Source of the DNA: Chloroflexota bacterium | GTDB taxonomy: Bacteria > Chloroflexota > Dehalococcoidia > UBA3495 | Assembly (NCBI GenBank): GCA_022563275.1 | Contig: JADFNR010000057.1 | Coordinates: 6,740-20,856 of the forward strand | DNA: 14,117 bases | Direction of reading: 5' to 3' | Shown: positions 2,115 to 6,303 of the stretch, piece after piece | How the letters are laid out: each line of letters opens with the position of its first letter | Numbering within the stretch: the first letter of the stretch is position 1 | Notes under the pieces: generated by a model | What the model was told of the DNA's origin: nothing | Databases searched by the model: none | What the model saw: the letters and a program-made list of their open reading frames with translations, nothing else | Position numbers and translations under genes: made by a program

Positions 2115-2675
2115 TTAAATTGGCAGCGGCGGCTCGGTGAGATTAGCCGGAAGGCCGACGTCGAAGGCGTTGATGTTGAAGGCCAGAGACGAGTAATAGC
2201 CCATGAGGTTGGTCAGTTCCACCAGACCGCGGACGCCGAACTGGGAGTGGGCGGCGTCGAAGGCCGGCTGGCTGACCCTGCGGGTGCGGAAAAGCTCTTG
2301 CCCAAAATTGACCACCGCCGACTCATCGGCCGACAGAGCTGGCAGGTCTTTTTTGTCACGGAGGTTGTCCACCAATTCGTCGCTGAGACCCGCCTGGCGG
2401 CCGAAGGCGGCGTGGGCGTTCCAGATGAACTGGCAGTCCATCTCCCGGGCGGTCAAGATCATGGCCAGTTCGCGCACGTTGGCCGGCAGACTGGACTCGT
2501 CACCCCGGATGTAGGCGCGGAAGTGCTCGCCCCGTTTGGCGAGTTCGGGGACGTTGATCATGATGGAGATGGGTCCGATGTCCGGCACGCTGCCGCGCTG
2601 GCTGACCAATTCGTCGAACGCCGCCAATTGGTCCTGGGGCACGCTTTCTCTGCTGGCTGTGGGTATTCGCGACAC
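2115..2675 (-). CDS. Carboxymuconolactone decarboxylase / AhpD-like family protein
   Basis: 186-residue all-helical CMD-superfamily protein. The region at about 66-105 (VRELAMILTAREMDCQFIWNAHAAFGR in part) has the family pattern E78..C81...W85..H88 followed by a G-L-S helix. The peroxidase-type CxxC of AhpD is absent: only one Cys (C81) is present, so this is more like the decarboxylase/unknown branch than a true alkylhydroperoxidase. Start: GTG at 2675 has GGGAGG a few bases upstream; the open frame extends further upstream to 2783 but that extension lacks family character. It is divergent from the MFS exporter, with 134 bases between starts. Substrate unknown. Confidence 0.85.
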   Translation of the reverse strand: MSRIPTASRESVPQDQLAAFDELVSQRGSVPDIGPISIMINVPELAKRGEHFRAYIRGDESSLPANVRELAMILTAREMDCQFIWNAHAAFGRQAGLSDELVDNLRDKKDLPALSADESAVVNFGQELFRTRRVSQPAFDAAHSQFGVRGLVELTNLMGYYSSLAFNINAFDVGLPANLTEPPLPI

Positions 2676-2705
2676 TTGGGCCTCCCGTTTTTGACGATTT
2701 TTATG

Positions 2706-2720
2706 CGCCGGTTCCCGGCG
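2706..2720. promoter_or_regulatory. Perfect inverted repeat in the divergent CMD/MFS intergenic region
   Basis: CGCCGG (2706-2711) and CCGGCG (2715-2720) around a 3-base centre, in the 134-base gap between two divergent genes. It could be an operator shared by both genes or a 5'-leader hairpin. No regulator gene adjoins it and no clear promoter boxes were identified, so function is a guess. Confidence 0.3.
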
Positions 2721-2809: not shown

Positions 2810-4366
2810 ATGTCTTCGATCGATCCCAATCGCGATTCAGGCAACCCCAACTCCGGTCCGGTCAAACCCAACGTGGACAGAGGCGCCTCTCTAGCCCGGA
2901 GCGCCAGGTTTAAATATTGGGTCTTTGGCGCCCTCGGCATCGGCATCTTCGCCTCGGTGGTGGACCACGGCAGCGTCAACGTGGCGTTGCCGACCATCGC
3001 CAGCGAATTCGATACAGACCTCCCCACCATCCAGTGGGTGGTGATTATTTACGCCCTGACCATCGCCGCCCTGCTTCTACCCATGGGGCGGCTCGCGGAC
3101 CTCATCGGGCGCAAGAAGGTCTACATCGCCGGGACGATGGTGTTGGCTCTCGGCGCCGTCTTGTCTGGATTGGCGCCGTCTTTGGAGATAATGTTCCCCT
3201 CCCGTGTCTTACAGGGGGTTGGGGCCGCCATGACCCAGGGCACCGGCATGGCCATCATCACCTCGGCTTTCCCCGCCAACGAGAAGGGCCGGGCCATTGG
3301 ACTATTCATGACAATGGTGGGGGTGGGCGCGGTTGCCGGACCGGCCATCGGAGGCGTGGTGGTGGACTCCTTTGGCTGGCGGGTCGTGTTCTTCTTGACG
3401 CTGCCATTGGAGGTCATCGGTGTGGCCGCCACGGCCTGGGTGATGCGAGGCTGGTCCGAGGTGCAGGAGGCCAGAGGCGCCCGGTTCGACTGGCTTGGCG
3501 CCGCACTGTCGACCGGTGTTTTGGTCGTCCTGCTGCTGGCCATGACCACGGGTAATAAGGCCGGCTGGTTATCGCCGCTCATCATTGCCGCCTTCACCGG
3601 CGCGGTGGCCATGCTGGCCGCGTTTATCTGGTGGGAACTGCGCACCGACGCGCCGATGCTGGACCTGAGGTTGTTCAAGGGGAAGACCTTTACCCTTGGG
3701 GTTTCAGCGGCATTTCTGACCTTCTTGGGCTCCTCGGCGGTCCTGTTCATGATGCCTTTTTACCTGCAGAACGTTCTGGGCTACAGCGCTAAGACGGCGG
3801 GCTTCGTCGTGGTGCCCGGAGCTCTCTGCATGGCGGTCTTGGGGACGGTGAGCGGGGTGCTCTCGGACCGGTTCGGCTGGCGTCCCTTCACCGTGGGCGG
3901 CTTGGCGTCTTCGGCGGCGGGGCTATTCTTATTGTCCCGGGTCACCGAGAATTCGTCCCTGTGGATGGTGGTGCCGGCGCTGATGCTGATGAGCAGCGGC
4001 ATGGGCATCTTCTATTCGCCCAACTCCAGCTCGGTCATGAGCGCCGTTGGCATAGCGCGGTACGGAGTGGTGTCCGGGTTCTTGAATCTGGTGCGGAACG
4101 CGGCTAATGTCACCAGCATCGCCTTTGCGACGATCATCGTGACCGCCACCATGGCATCGCTGGGCTTCGAATCCAGCCTGGAATCGGTGCGCGGCGACGC
4201 CGAGGGCGTGGGCCATGCGTTTACCGTGGGGCTCCGTTACTCTTTCTTGACCATGATGGCCATAGTGCTGGTGAGCATGACCCTCTCGGCGTTTCAACCG
4301 AACCATGCTGCAGAACAAGATTCGCCGGGGTCGGGCGACTTGGAGGAGTCACAAGCCGAGGTCTAA
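2810..4366 (+). CDS. MFS drug exporter, DHA2 (EmrB/QacA) type
   Basis: 518-residue inner-membrane major facilitator protein, the length usual for 14-TM DHA2 drug:H+ antiporters. A hydrophilic N-terminus (1-34) precedes TM1 (about 36-60, ending VDHGSVNVALPTI, the DHA2 form of motif D1). Motif A is G93RLADLIGRKK, and motif C is the GVGAVAGPAIGG stretch at 171-182, the antiporter signature. Further hydrophobic helices continue to about 490, followed by a charged tail ending SQAEV. ATG at 2810 is preferred; the open frame reaches back to a TTG at 2756, but that extension is hydrophilic and non-conserved. Its stop (4364-4366) overlaps the stop of the convergent MerT-like gene, with no terminator visible between them. 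Substrate cannot be read from sequence. Confidence 0.92.
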   Translation: MSSIDPNRDSGNPNSGPVKPNVDRGASLARSARFKYWVFGALGIGIFASVVDHGSVNVALPTIASEFDTDLPTIQWVVIIYALTIAALLLPMGRLADLIGRKKVYIAGTMVLALGAVLSGLAPSLEIMFPSRVLQGVGAAMTQGTGMAIITSAFPANEKGRAIGLFMTMVGVGAVAGPAIGGVVVDSFGWRVVFFLTLPLEVIGVAATAWVMRGWSEVQEARGARFDWLGAALSTGVLVVLLLAMTTGNKAGWLSPLIIAAFTGAVAMLAAFIWWELRTDAPMLDLRLFKGKTFTLGVSAAFLTFLGSSAVLFMMPFYLQNVLGYSAKTAGFVVVPGALCMAVLGTVSGVLSDRFGWRPFTVGGLASSAAGLFLLSRVTENSSLWMVVPALMLMSSGMGIFYSPNSSSVMSAVGIARYGVVSGFLNLVRNAANVTSIAFATIIVTATMASLGFESSLESVRGDAEGVGHAFTVGLRYSFLTMMAIVLVSMTLSAFQPNHAAEQDSPGSGDLEESQAEV

Positions 4367-4708
4367 AGCGGATTGTTGCCCAGCAGACCGGCGAACCGCA
4401 GACCCCACAACGTGACGGCCAATACTGTGGAAACGATCAACGTGTACGTTGCCCGGTTCTTCCACGCTGGTCCCCACCAACTGCCGTGGGATGGCGCCAG
4501 CCACCAACCCCGCGCCAACATGAGCACGGTGACCGCCAAGAAGGGCCAAGTAAGCCCCGATTAATCGGGGCAACGCAGGCGCGAAGGCCAGCCCGGCTGA
4601 GGTCCCACCCAGCAGGCCGAGCAGGCCCGGCACCACTCATCACCAGGGAAGTGGCAGCAGTCCGCTGAGCAGGCTTACGAAGGGTTTTTCAATTTGAAGT
4701 AGTTTCAT
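4363..4708 (-). CDS. MerT-like membrane protein with tandem TGA (Sec-Sec) and a +1 frameshift
   Basis: Last gene of the leftward operon. ATG at 4708 follows GGAG (TTGGAGAACC). It reads MKLLQIEKPF...LLPLPW, then TGA TGA (4642-4637), then VVPGLLGLLGGTSAG. MerT mercuric transporters have a Cys-Cys pair in TM1 followed by a Pro and a Gly-rich stretch here, so both TGAs fall on the metal-binding pair (Sec23-Sec24). A SECIS-like hairpin follows. The frame then shifts at or near the palindrome 4555-4570: the MerT-like remainder (TM2 LTWPFLAVTVLMLARGWW; loop; NRATYTLI and TM3; end LLGNNPL, TAG at 4363-4365) is in the next frame. Dropping one G of GGGG gives 114 residues, close to MerT (about 116). 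The NRATYTLI block resembles the RATYKLI I recall from Tn501 MerT. The second Cys pair of MerT's cytoplasmic loop is absent. It may be an assembly error, a damaged gene, or recoded. Confidence 0.68.
4554..4571. repeat. Perfect 18-bp palindrome inside the MerT-like gene
   Basis: GCCCCGATTAATCGGGGC is its own reverse complement. The inner 16 bp resemble the intergenic palindromes at 1930-1945 and 2081-2096 (CCCGATT..AATCGGG). It lies exactly where the MerT-like frame breaks. Removing the 16-bp unit CCCCGATTAATCGGGG, or one G of its GGGG run, would restore one continuous frame, since 16 leaves remainder 1 on division by 3. Confidence 0.75.
4596..4642 (-). promoter_or_regulatory. Putative bacterial SECIS element of the MerT-like gene
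   Basis: After the tandem UGAs (4642-4637) the mRNA can fold CGGGCC (4629-4624), loop UGCUC (4623-4619), GGCCUG (4618-4613): six pairs including one G-U. The loop starts 16 nt after the first UGA (13 after the second), and its second base is G, as in the other two candidates of this operon. An alternative, mutually exclusive hairpin follows: GCUGGG (4613-4608), loop UGGGAC, CUCAGC (4601-4596), also with G at loop position 2. Two UGAs with two possible hairpins is suggestive but unproven. Confidence 0.5.
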
Positions 4709-4782
4709 GGTTCTCCAACTCGTTGGTGGGCCAGTGGCGGTAACAAGCGCTCTCGAAGGGCGCTCTTCTGACCCTGCTCACG

Positions 4783-5334
4783 TCACAGGGCCTTTTCAAT
4801 CTCGGTCCGCAACACGTCGTACGGCGTGGCGCCGGCGTCGCGGTAGGAGATGCGTCCCTGCCGGTCGATGATGATCGTGGTGCCCAGGCTGGTCACCTGA
4901 AACGACTTGACCAACCGCTGGTCAACGTCGTTGGCCCAGGAAACTTCCGTAGCGCCCTTGCTATACCAGTAGTCGCGCCAAGCCTCCACCGGGATCCATG
5001 GGGCAGTGTTGATGGCCAGCACCTGGACCCCTTGAGACCTGAATTCTTGCTGCACCCGTCCTAGGGCTGGAGCCTCCAGCCCGCAGGTGGGTCAACCAGG
5101 GAAAGAGAAATAAAGCACCACAGTGCTGCCCAGATAGTCGTCCATGGCCAGGGAGACCACCGGAACCGCATCGGTGGACCGGGCGGCGGTCTGCGGGCCC
5201 ACATTGGCTGCGCCGCCGCCTGCATCCCCTCCGCAGGCCATCAGCGCCGCGGCTGTGATCAACATCAGGCCGATCAGGGTCTTGGCGTTAGCCAATTTCG
5301 CCTTAGATAGGCCCCTCTCAGCTTTTACTATCAT
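4783..5334 (-). CDS. Thioredoxin/TlpA-like lipoprotein redoxin with in-frame TGA (Sec) in a UxxC motif
   Basis: 183 residues if TGA at 5094-5092 is read as selenocysteine. N-terminal signal with a hydrophobic stretch (about 19-33) and lipobox LMAC at 31-34, so C34 would be lipidated and the domain anchored outside the membrane. The redoxin fold follows: VVLYFSFPG-U81-PTC84-GLEAPAL, where the family has CPxC; then VQVLAINTAP, and GTTIIIDRQGRISYRD near 151-166. The usual cis-Pro before the TT strand is missing (TSLGTT), an oddity. Start: ATG 5334 overlaps the end of the upstream small gene by 17 bases; TTG 5340 is possible. Without Sec insertion the product would end at residue 80, just before the catalytic motif, leaving a useless N-terminus, while the fold continues in the same frame to TGA at 4783. 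Likely role: thiol/selenol reductant or peroxidase outside the membrane. Confidence 0.85.
5064..5094 (-). promoter_or_regulatory. Putative bacterial SECIS element of the redoxin gene
   Basis: UGA (5094-5092), a 9-nt spacer, then a perfect 7-bp stem GGGCUGG (5082-5076) / CCAGCCC (5070-5064) closing a 5-nt loop AGGCU. The loop starts 16 nt after UGA and has G as its second base. This fits the general bacterial SECIS pattern recognised by SelB (short stem directly after UGA, G among the first two loop bases). It is the cleanest of the three candidates. Confidence 0.72.
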
Positions 5335-5482
5335 GCCCAATGGGATGGTCCAAGCCTTTTTTCTGTTCCTCAGTATCCAAAGCCCGCTTTTCCGGCCTCC
5401 GAAACACCTGGACGCCCAGCCAGATGGCGGCGGGAATCAACAAGCAACAGACGATAGGCAGCGCAACGAATAAACTACTCAT
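5318..5482 (-). CDS. 54-residue single-span membrane protein with a Cys-Cys pair
   Basis: Small gene between the two redox genes. ATG at 5482; TGA at 5320-5318. Residues 4-26 form one transmembrane helix (SLFVALPIVCCLLIPAAIWL in part) with a vicinal pair C12-C13, and residues 27-54 a charged tail (FRRPEKRALDTEEQKKGLD...). No family recognised. The Cys pair in a membrane helix recalls the metal-binding CC of MerT, but here Cys codons are kept (TGT TGC). It starts 35 bases after the glutaredoxin stop and overlaps the redoxin start, so it is almost certainly co-transcribed and perhaps translationally coupled. It may bind metal or partner the MerT-like protein (inference). The terminal TGA looks like an ordinary stop: a TAA follows four codons later. 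Confidence 0.75.
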   Translation of the reverse strand: MSSLFVALPIVCCLLIPAAIWLGVQVFRRPEKRALDTEEQKKGLDHPIGHDSKS

Positions 5483-5517
5483 TGACGCTTGTCCTGCTCA
5501 AAAGATCGCTTCATTTT

Positions 5518-5760
5518 TTATCCTTGCTCGCCCAATAATTCTTCGAACCGTGCGCGGTCGAACCCAACCACGACTTCGCCATCGATGACAGTGACCGGGG
5601 TGGTCAACACCCCGATCTTCAATAGTTCGTTCATGGCCGATTTGTCATTCAGCACATCTTTTTCCACAAAGGGGACATTCCGCTGCGAAAGATACTCTTT
5701 CGTCATCTCGCAAAAGTGTCAACCGTCCGGCTGCGTGTAAACGAAAATCTCTCTTGCCAT
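5518..5760 (-). CDS. Glutaredoxin/NrdH-like protein with in-frame TGA (Sec) in a UxxC motif
   Basis: 80 residues if TGA at 5721-5719 is selenocysteine, the normal size of a small glutaredoxin. It reads MAREIFVYTQPDG-U14-HFC17-EMTKEYLSQ: beta1, then UxxC in place of CxxC, then helix 1. The rest is classic: VPFVEKDV, then GVLTTPVTVIDGEVVVGFD at 50-68 with the TTPV cis-Pro motif, then FEELLG. ATG at 5760 has a strong GAGGAG 5-6 bases upstream, while the alternative in-frame ATG after the TGA would delete beta1 and the active site. Stop TAA at 5520-5518. It lies 38 bases downstream of the MerR-like gene. Cytoplasmic; likely reduces disulfides or metal/selenol adducts for the operon. The match of start, SD, motif and fold across the TGA makes a pseudogene unlikely. 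Confidence 0.87.
5686..5721 (-). promoter_or_regulatory. Putative bacterial SECIS element of the glutaredoxin gene
   Basis: UGA (5721-5719), a 16-nt spacer, then a perfect 6-bp stem CGAAAG (5702-5697) / CUUUCG (5691-5686) closing a 5-nt loop AGUAU. G is the second loop base; the loop starts 22 nt after UGA. Loop size and G position are the same as in the redoxin candidate. A competing pairing (UGCGA upstream with UCGCA) exists and would need a folding calculation. Confidence 0.65.
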
Positions 5761-5798
5761 GGGTCTCCTCTCGGTTGACTGGGAGCCGGAATGCCTGC

Positions 5799-6242
5799 CT
5801 ACGCAAGGTTATTTATGGTTGGGGCGGGTTGCTGGCGTTTGATGTTGCTTTGTTCAATTATGGTGCAAATGTCCCCGCCCAGAGACCTACAATCGACCAA
5901 TCCGACTGTGCGGTCTCTCAGCGCAACCAAGTCGCCTTTGAAGGACTGGAGGGCATCAATGGTTGTCTCCACTTCCGCGATCTTCCTTTCCATCAGGTCA
6001 CGTACATGAACGCACGTCGACTCTTCGGCGTCGTGCAACTGCAAGATGCCCATGATTTCATGCAGGGACAGGCCGAGGAGCTTGGCTTTCAGGATGAATT
6101 CCATCCTGCTCACCGACTCGTCATCGTAGGAACGATAGCCAGAGGCGAGCCTGGCCGGTTCTGGCATCAGACCCTCGGCTTCATAAAACCTAATGGTCTT
6201 GGCGTGGGCGCCGGTGACCTTGGCCAACTCTCCGATCTTCAC
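5799..6242 (-). CDS. MerR-family metal-responsive transcriptional regulator
   Basis: 147-residue first gene of the leftward operon. N-terminal winged HTH of the MerR family: KIGELAKVTGAHAKTIRFYEAEGL at residues 2-24 (part) and SGYRSYD at 34-40. A dimerising coiled-coil helix follows (about 78-112). Cysteines at 77, 118 and 126 match the metal site of MerR/ZntR-type sensors; a Cys at the first position (Ser in the Cu(I) sensor CueR) points to a divalent metal such as Hg, Zn, Cd or Pb, and the C-X7-C loop is CueR/ZntR-like. GTG at 6242 is used because TGA lies two codons upstream; AGGAG sits 8 bases before it. It probably represses and, when metal-bound, activates the promoter at 6272-6303 and so its own operon. 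Confidence 0.92.
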   Translation of the reverse strand: MKIGELAKVTGAHAKTIRFYEAEGLMPEPARLASGYRSYDDESVSRMEFILKAKLLGLSLHEIMGILQLHDAEESTCVHVRDLMERKIAEVETTIDALQSFKGDLVALRDRTVGLVDCRSLGGDICTIIEQSNIKRQQPAPTINNLA

Positions 6243-6271
6243 CAGTCATTCTCCTTTTATCGTTGATGAGG

Positions 6272-6303
6272 ATTGTAAACCTTCCAGTAGGATGGAAGGT
6301 CAA
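6272..6303 (-). promoter_or_regulatory. MerR/CueR-type promoter and operator of the selenoprotein operon
   Basis: Reading leftward: -35 TTGACC (6303-6298), a 20-bp spacer, -10 TACAAT (6277-6272). The overlong spacer is the hallmark of MerR-family promoters. It contains a perfect inverted repeat, ACCTTCCA (6279-6286) and TGGAAGGT (6293-6300), with a 6-base centre, very like the known CueR/copA operator arms (ACCTTCC...GGAAGGT). Transcription would start near 6265, about 23 bases before the GTG of the MerR-like gene. Confidence 0.85.

Follow-up and report, generated by a model that had tools for sequence, protein, structure and literature searches.

The DNA analysed here (the window) is a stretch of 14,117 nucleotides from a Chloroflexota bacterium (assembly GCA_022563275.1, contig JADFNR010000057.1, positions 6,740 to 20,856). 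It holds, behind a single promoter, five minus-strand genes encoding in this order a MerR-family regulator, a glutaredoxin-like protein (Grx), a small membrane protein with a vicinal cysteine pair (CC protein), a TlpA-like lipoprotein and a MerT-like membrane protein (Table 1). A first-pass annotation, made from the sequence alone, had proposed that these genes form a metal-inducible selenoprotein operon. Its description of five leftward genes behind one MerR-type promoter is borne out by the gene coordinates and by the promoter found, and the four in-frame TGA codons that it reported are distributed over three genes as described: one in Grx, one in the TlpA-like gene and two, adjacent, in the MerT-like gene. 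The intergenic gaps are, in operon order, 38, 35, -17 (i.e. an overlap) and 74 bases. The ordinary stop codon of both the CC gene and the TlpA gene is UGA.

Relatives are designated by locus (L), genome (G) or database protein (P). L001, L002 and L003 lie in G001, G002 and G003, L108 in G004, L106 in G141 and L107 in G432; L110, L119, L124 and L143 lie in G569 (two copies), G572 and G566. The annotation had suggested looking for the same gene order in related genomes: L001 and L002 display the same five genes in the same order with all four TGAs, and the same MFS gene downstream. A cupin gene adjoins MerR in these two loci and lies 5 kb away in the window. Judged from these sequences, the window probably comes from a close relative of the L001 and L002 genomes. 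When a species-genome collection was scanned with the TlpA alignment, five loci came up, all in Chloroflexi metagenome-assembled genomes (MAGs), and one database relative (P0064) is labelled SAR202. The TlpA profile matches 22 of 393 genomes in a sample of the class (at 1e-15) and 10 of 250 in the order (at 1e-22).

Table 1. Position of the operon features in the window (numbering of the whole stretch; Sec, selenocysteine)
Feature	Position	Strand	Remarks
MerR-type promoter	6272..6303	-	TTGACC, 20-bp spacer, TACAAT; dyad ACCTTCCA/TGGAAGGT at 6300-6279, 8-bp arms
MerR-family metal sensor	5799..6242	-	GTG start; over Pfam cut-off in three MerR models
Glutaredoxin-like protein (Grx)	5518..5760	-	predicted Sec at TGA 5721-5719 (GUHFC)
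SECIS-like hairpin of Grx	5686..5702	-	7-bp stem, GUA loop
Small CC membrane protein	5318..5482	-	54 aa; vicinal Cys pair + Pro (VCCLLIP) in a single hydrophobic stretch
TlpA/AhpC-TSA-like predicted lipoprotein	4783..5334	-	predicted Sec at TGA 5094-5092 (GUPTC)
SECIS stem-loop of TlpA	5064..5082	-	8 bp, covarying
MerT-like gene, N-terminal part	4571..4708	-	predicted Sec-Sec at TGA 4642-4640 and TGA 4639-4637 (PWUUVVPG)
16-nt palindrome	4555..4570	.	MerT-like frame lost here; L002 has it at the corresponding position
MerT-like gene, C-terminal part	4363..4554	-	other frame than the N-terminal part

Predicted selenocysteine codons in the TlpA-like and Grx genes

The TlpA-like protein scores over the Pfam cut-offs in PF00578 and PF08534. 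Among the 27 homologues that cover its TGA site, 15 carry TGA (the window and 14 genomes), 12 carry a Cys codon and none carries anything else; this count includes one Cys form (L038) that is a neighbouring paralogue, and leaves out L035, L036, L041, L042 and the fragment L052/L066, in which the site is not covered. The database homologues P0007 and P0008 also carry Cys at this position. For Grx, which scores 52.3 bits in PF00462 (gathering score 22.9), the codon check gives TGA in six sequences and Cys in two. Thus for these two proteins the TGAs do stand at the reactive cysteine, as had been claimed, and the site varies only between TGA and Cys, with nothing random.

The hairpins were expected past each TGA. 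In TlpA the 8-bp stem begins 9 nt past the TGA and its stability (z -2.85) is equalled by 2 of 200 shuffles. All eight pairs are present in 14 of the 15 TGA forms, the last one (G079) having five; in the 12 Cys forms only one to six of the eight pairs can form and the stem is never complete. The alignment used for covariation comprises 13 TGA forms (G137 and G079 left out). In this alignment 104 of 104 cells are paired and three pairs are changed on both sides, a number matched or exceeded in 9 of 500 shuffles. The score for covariation, 0.313 versus 0.114 in shuffles, is attained by none of the 500. The Grx hairpin has a z of -2.69 (4 of 200 shuffles as good) and 95.2% of its cells are paired in 6 sequences.

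Coding constraint was estimated among the window, L001 and L002. Past the TGA, dN/dS is 0.05-0.13 in Grx and 0.08-0.22 in TlpA, and it is 0.04-0.12 over the 21 codons that follow the double TGA in the N-terminal part of the MerT-like gene. The CC gene, which has no TGA, is looser than these three (0.21-0.58). Database searches with single proteins of the window found only one and two relatives, because gene callers cut these genes at the TGA.

The annotation had also called for a search for the Sec machinery. In the genomes of the five first-found relatives, tRNA-Sec and selB are over cut-off in all five and ARAGORN reads the tRNA-Sec anticodon as TCA in each. Only cut-off matches and ARAGORN were counted for tRNA-Sec, since at E 0.001 the control search matches all 14 genomes, five of them over cut-off. 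More widely, selB is over cut-off in 209 of the 250 genomes of the order and matches at 1e-60 in 26 of the 31 genomes that have the MerT-like family, which is therefore not enriched for selB beyond the order. In the window, ARAGORN finds no tRNA and an Rfam scan gives five matches, all far under gathering scores. The alternation of TGA with Cys only, the covarying TlpA stem, the constraint past the TGAs and the tRNA-Sec and selB of the relatives strongly support the predicted reading of the in-frame TGAs as Sec; the alternation, the TlpA covariation and the constraint also place the TGA pattern beyond chance, as had been argued.

A MerT-like family with two adjacent TGAs

The MerT-like genes represent a new family, whose profile was built from the intact L001 protein and P0006. 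It matches 9 of the 393 genomes of the class sample and 31 of the 250 of the order, some through fragments. The pair is TGA-TGA in 25 of 26 codon-checked genomes, the remaining one (G572) having TTA-TGA in a degenerate copy; the copy of G571 is also degenerate. This codon-by-codon count leaves out G435, G489, G406 and G567, whose rows show two TGAs. No intact Cys-Cys form was found in the codon-checked genomes or among the 120 of 164 database relatives listed. Among these 120, 118 do not span the double TGA and most begin just past it. P0006 and P0009, which are full-length JGI predictions, span the site and read WWW; as the codon-checked relatives have a Trp codon followed by TGA TGA, this probably reflects translation with code 4 by the gene caller. 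The Sec-Sec membrane protein would thus be an apparently obligate Sec-Sec family, and it is the most unusual part of the predicted operon. In G141 (L106, about 4200-4280, minus strand) the pair is TGC-TGA (Cys-Sec), in a broken frame that adjoins a P-type ATPase gene.

The predicted Sec pair occupies residues 23-24, in the first hydrophobic stretch (a helix by hydropathy). The MerTP model NF033556 matches 17 of 23 family members weakly (E up to 0.1), the MerT model NF033560 matches 3 of 23 (best E 4.4e-6) and Pfam MerT (PF02411) 1 of 23 (E 0.11). For three single members the MerT match starts at residue 22 or 23, with 12-20 bits against a cut-off of 180 bits. The double TGA therefore likely stands where MerT has its Cys pair; this placement comes from the weak MerT-model match, because Cys homologues of the same family were not found. 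We do not file the family as MerT because the second Cys pair is absent. Neither the MerT-like nor the CC protein matches a Pfam family over cut-off. The AlphaFold model of the family is weak (pLDDT 60, pTM 0.37) and the PDB profile search returned only matches at E 0.4 or worse.

The fold past the double TGA is not unusually stable (z +0.50 and -0.01), so that the claim of a hairpin after each TGA stands for Grx and TlpA and not for the MerT-like pair. Adjacent Sec-Sec decoding at two consecutive UGAs would test how SelB and one SECIS serve two codons. Databases list these genes as truncated proteins, one example being the 86-aa P0034 of the L001 contig, so that the extent of mercury handling in this uncultured group is probably underestimated.

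In the window the MerT-like frame is lost at the palindrome: the frame with the two TGAs continues to 4349, and the conserved C-terminal half, in the other frame, ends at 4363. Of the Sec-Sec MerT-like protein that had been described, the two adjacent TGAs are thus present and the intact protein is not. In L001 the gene is intact and the palindrome is absent from it. Over the 63 codons past the break dN/dS is 0.09 for window-L001, 0.53 for window-L002 and 0.21 for L001-L002, which suggests recent damage, or a constraint that weakens in places. We do not adopt the idea of a programmed frameshift at the palindrome: the frame runs without interruption in other relatives, several copies show plain decay, and among the loci compared only the window and G002 have the palindrome in this gene. 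Nor is there support for an abundant mobile repeat: exact copies of the palindrome are rare, with one in G001 (elsewhere in the genome), two in G002 and none in G003-G005. The further copies of G001 and G002 (L068, L069) adjoin other near-palindromes.

The MerT-like genes of G569 (two copies), G572 and G566 each sit between a cupin gene and an MFS gene, with no adjoining MerR, Grx or TlpA match. These surroundings are those of the whole operon in L001 and L002, and the copies of G572 and G566 are decayed.

The mercury reading and its rivals

The window has two features of a mer operon, a MerR-type regulator and a promoter with a long spacer. The same layout, with a 20-bp spacer before MerR, is present in L001, L002, L062, L108, L101 and L057, and with a 19-bp spacer in L005, i.e. 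in 8 of 11 examined loci, window counted; the pattern search did not find it in L102, L136 and L073. In the regulator, C77 and C126 are invariant among 10 aligned sequences and C118 is present in 8 of them; one of the 10 is annotated as Hg(II)-responsive. The window MerR reaches no NCBIfam MerR-subtype cut-off (90.1 of 150.85 bits for TIGR02051 MerR).

The link with mercury comes from the relatives. The clusters are composed of MerR, Sec-Grx, MerA, Sec-Sec MerT-like, CC and Sec-TlpA in L062; of ArsR, Sec-Grx, MerA, Sec-Sec MerT-like and Sec-TlpA in L061; of MerR, Sec-Grx, MerA, HMA, CcdA, Trx, CC and Sec-TlpA in L108; of ArsR, MerA, Sec-CcdA, Sec-HMA, CC and Sec-TlpA in L003; and of ArsR, MerA, CC, Sec-TlpA and CcdA in L054. 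MerA passes its curated cut-off in L061, L062, L108 and L054; L003 has a partial MerA, which at 405.7 bits falls short of it. The promoter type of the window precedes the MerA operons of L062, L108 and L057. MerA is over cut-off in 9 of 18 genomes searched and in 16 of the 250 of the order. In the order it coincides with the MerT-like family in 8 genomes (2.0 expected, p 1.5e-4) and with Sec-TlpA in 4 (0.64 expected, p 0.0019), both uncorrected for kinship; in 6 of the 8 overlap genomes MerA and the MerT-like gene are 7-776 bp apart.

Because relatives that share the promoter and the regulator carry mercuric reductase in the cluster, we consider it likely that the operon is a Sec version of a mer-type gene set, passing Hg(II) between selenol and thiol pairs, with its four UGAs predicted to encode Sec. 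It would be a real selenoprotein operon of mer type, made of known parts in a new combination with Sec at the hand-over points. The affinity of selenols for Hg(II) exceeds that of thiols, and the toxicity of mercury is often blamed on captured selenoproteins; if the reading is true, selenium is here put to work on the Hg ion itself. In such a system Hg(II) would bind MerR through the C77/C118/C126 set and turn transcription on. The Sec-TlpA lipoprotein would capture or free Hg(II) outside the membrane, the CC and MerT-like proteins would carry it across, the vicinal Sec-Sec in the first membrane helix of the latter playing the part of MerT Cys24-Cys25, and the cytosolic Sec-Grx would hand it to mercuric reductase. 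A bolder proposal is that a Chloroflexi mer relay has turned into a selenium relay, whose transporter family exists only with vicinal Sec-Sec as a diselenol metal gate beside mercuric reductase; here our confidence leans only slightly to the positive side.

Several points weigh against this interpretation. Concerning Sec, the Grx stem shows no covariation in its 6 sequences, no convincing consensus SECIS stem appears past the double TGA over 25 sequences, and selB is not matched at 1e-60 in 5 of the 31 genomes where the MerT-like family occurs. Concerning MerT, the kinship of the family is below every curated cut-off and no second conserved Cys pair was found in its alignment. The MerT-like gene has lost its frame in the window and G002, and its copies in G559, G566, G567, G571, G572 and G406 contain stops or frame breaks; the alignment of the L108 MerR gene is spread over two frames. 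Concerning mercury, MerA was not found in the window, nor over its cut-off (454 bits) in the two closest genomes, G001 (best 401) and G002 (best 383), MAGs that may be incomplete; among the 31 genomes that have the MerT-like family, 23 lack a MerA that passes it, and the association test ignores kinship. In G558 the MerT-like gene is flanked by a CsoR-like regulator on one side and by a P-type ATPase gene on the other (open reading frame (ORF) reading), and the operator of the window resembles that of copper-type MerR regulators; both leave room for other soft metals. Thus the proposal of a mercury-like system under MerR holds in that relatives combine the same promoter and regulator with MerA; for a complete mercury pathway in this copy there is no support. 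With the MerT-like frame broken and MerA not found, the pathway in the lineage of the window looks impaired, and this copy may be a remnant, or its role may be limited to Hg binding and redox defence.

Two explanations would dispense with Sec altogether. If the TGAs were true stops, the genes would be pseudogenes or would yield short proteins restarted past the double TGA, which is how gene callers annotate them; the 118 relatives that do not span the pair, most beginning just past it, fit this, as does the GTG that follows it directly in 14 of 25 genes. In the other 11 the codon is however GTC, GTA, GTT, ATA or ATC, the constraint acts on one frame on both sides of the TGAs, and the covarying TlpA stem is restricted to TGA forms; we therefore give this explanation almost no credit. 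Nor do we believe that these organisms translate UGA as tryptophan, as the WWW of P0006 and P0009 would have it: within the operon itself two genes end on UGA, the residue aligned with the TlpA and Grx sites is Cys rather than Trp, and the relatives possess tRNA-Sec(UCA) and selB.

The two others accept Sec and differ as to the role of the operon. It could serve copper, silver or another thiophilic element, with a MerR that senses a different ion and with TlpA, CcdA, Grx and HMA proteins that keep thiols reduced and chaperone the ion. The TlpA/CcdA/Trx/HMA neighbourhoods of L003-L005 and L108 point that way, as do the neighbours in G558 and the P-type ATPase in G141 (ORF reading) and the best subtype match of the window MerR, CadR-PbrR (107.3 of 151.45 bits, below cut-off). 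But MerA is over its curated cut-off in the same clusters, under the same promoter in L062, L108 and L057, and it overlaps the MerT-like family four-fold more than expected, so this alternative seems to us rather unlikely. That the operon is the decaying remnant of a mer system, in a lineage which lost MerA and is now losing the rest, the MerT-like gene first, deserves more weight and is nevertheless doubtful. The frame break in the window and G002, the degenerate copies of G572, G566, G567 and G571, the dN/dS of 0.53 between window and L002 past the break and the MerA results for G001 and G002 all agree with it. Conversely, whole-gene dN/dS of MerR, Grx and TlpA is 0.07-0.35 among the window, L001 and L002, that of the C-terminal part is still 0.09 between window and L001, and the L001 gene is intact though MerA was not found in G001.

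Comparison with known systems

In MerT, Cys24-Cys25 pass Hg(II) to Cys76/Cys82 and then to MerA (PMC5715351). The window set resembles the mer operon (MerR-MerT-MerP-MerA) by its MerR sensor, its promoter layout, the MerA of its relatives' operons and the vicinal ligand pair of a membrane protein, at residues 23-24 compared to Cys24-Cys25 in MerT (PMC5715351). It differs in having Sec for Cys and TlpA-like and Grx-like selenoprotein partners, in lacking MerP and MerA, and in a MerT-like protein devoid of the second conserved Cys pair.

Individual Sec proteins of this kind are on record: an ocean survey (PMC2398784) lists Sec forms of MerP and of a putative mercuric transport protein, PMC9312934 a putative Sec mercuric reductase, and a review (PMC13188914, Table 1) a Sec MerT along with other Sec metal proteins. 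The Sec MerT-like proteins (PF02411, ABB16073.1; the MerT/CopZ fusion NF045683 of NCBIfam) are likewise membrane proteins with a predicted Sec. According to the review they have one Sec, in a C/SxxU motif, whereas the family of the window would have two, adjacent, and is under the curated cut-offs. The SAO/Tso operons (Haft and co-workers; PMC13188914) also group several selenoprotein genes, and SAO is linked there to organometals; they consist of other protein families, and the available part of the review describes no mer-type regulator-transporter-reductase set for them. The Grx is akin to the UXX-star/YruB-type glutaredoxin-like proteins (NF041212, TIGR02196), with Sec predicted at its first active-site Cys; at 54.6 of 66 and 67.6 of 88.55 bits, respectively, it however reaches neither curated cut-off, and it sits in a mer-type operon. 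We found neither an adjacent Sec-Sec MerT-type transporter nor such an operon in the literature as far as it was available to us; an earlier mention is possible, PMC12013261 and PMC9879109 lying outside the papers covered.

Further candidate selenoproteins appear in the mer-type clusters of relatives. That of G003 (L003:6820-7781) encodes a CcdA/DsbD-like protein with TGA at the second membrane Cys (VGUTGP) and a HMA metal-binding protein with a CxxU motif (DCDGU), both predicted selenoproteins. The MerA of G432 (L107:3165-4481) reads GTSVNVGU at its active site, AGC and TGA replacing two Cys codons; the site is at the very end of the contig, and this is either a Sec-MerA or a sequence error. 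Small membrane proteins with a CPCH motif (ACPCHL) adjoin MerA or TlpA (L102:5385-5729; L066:about 2480-2720, minus strand) and are perhaps further mercury transporters.

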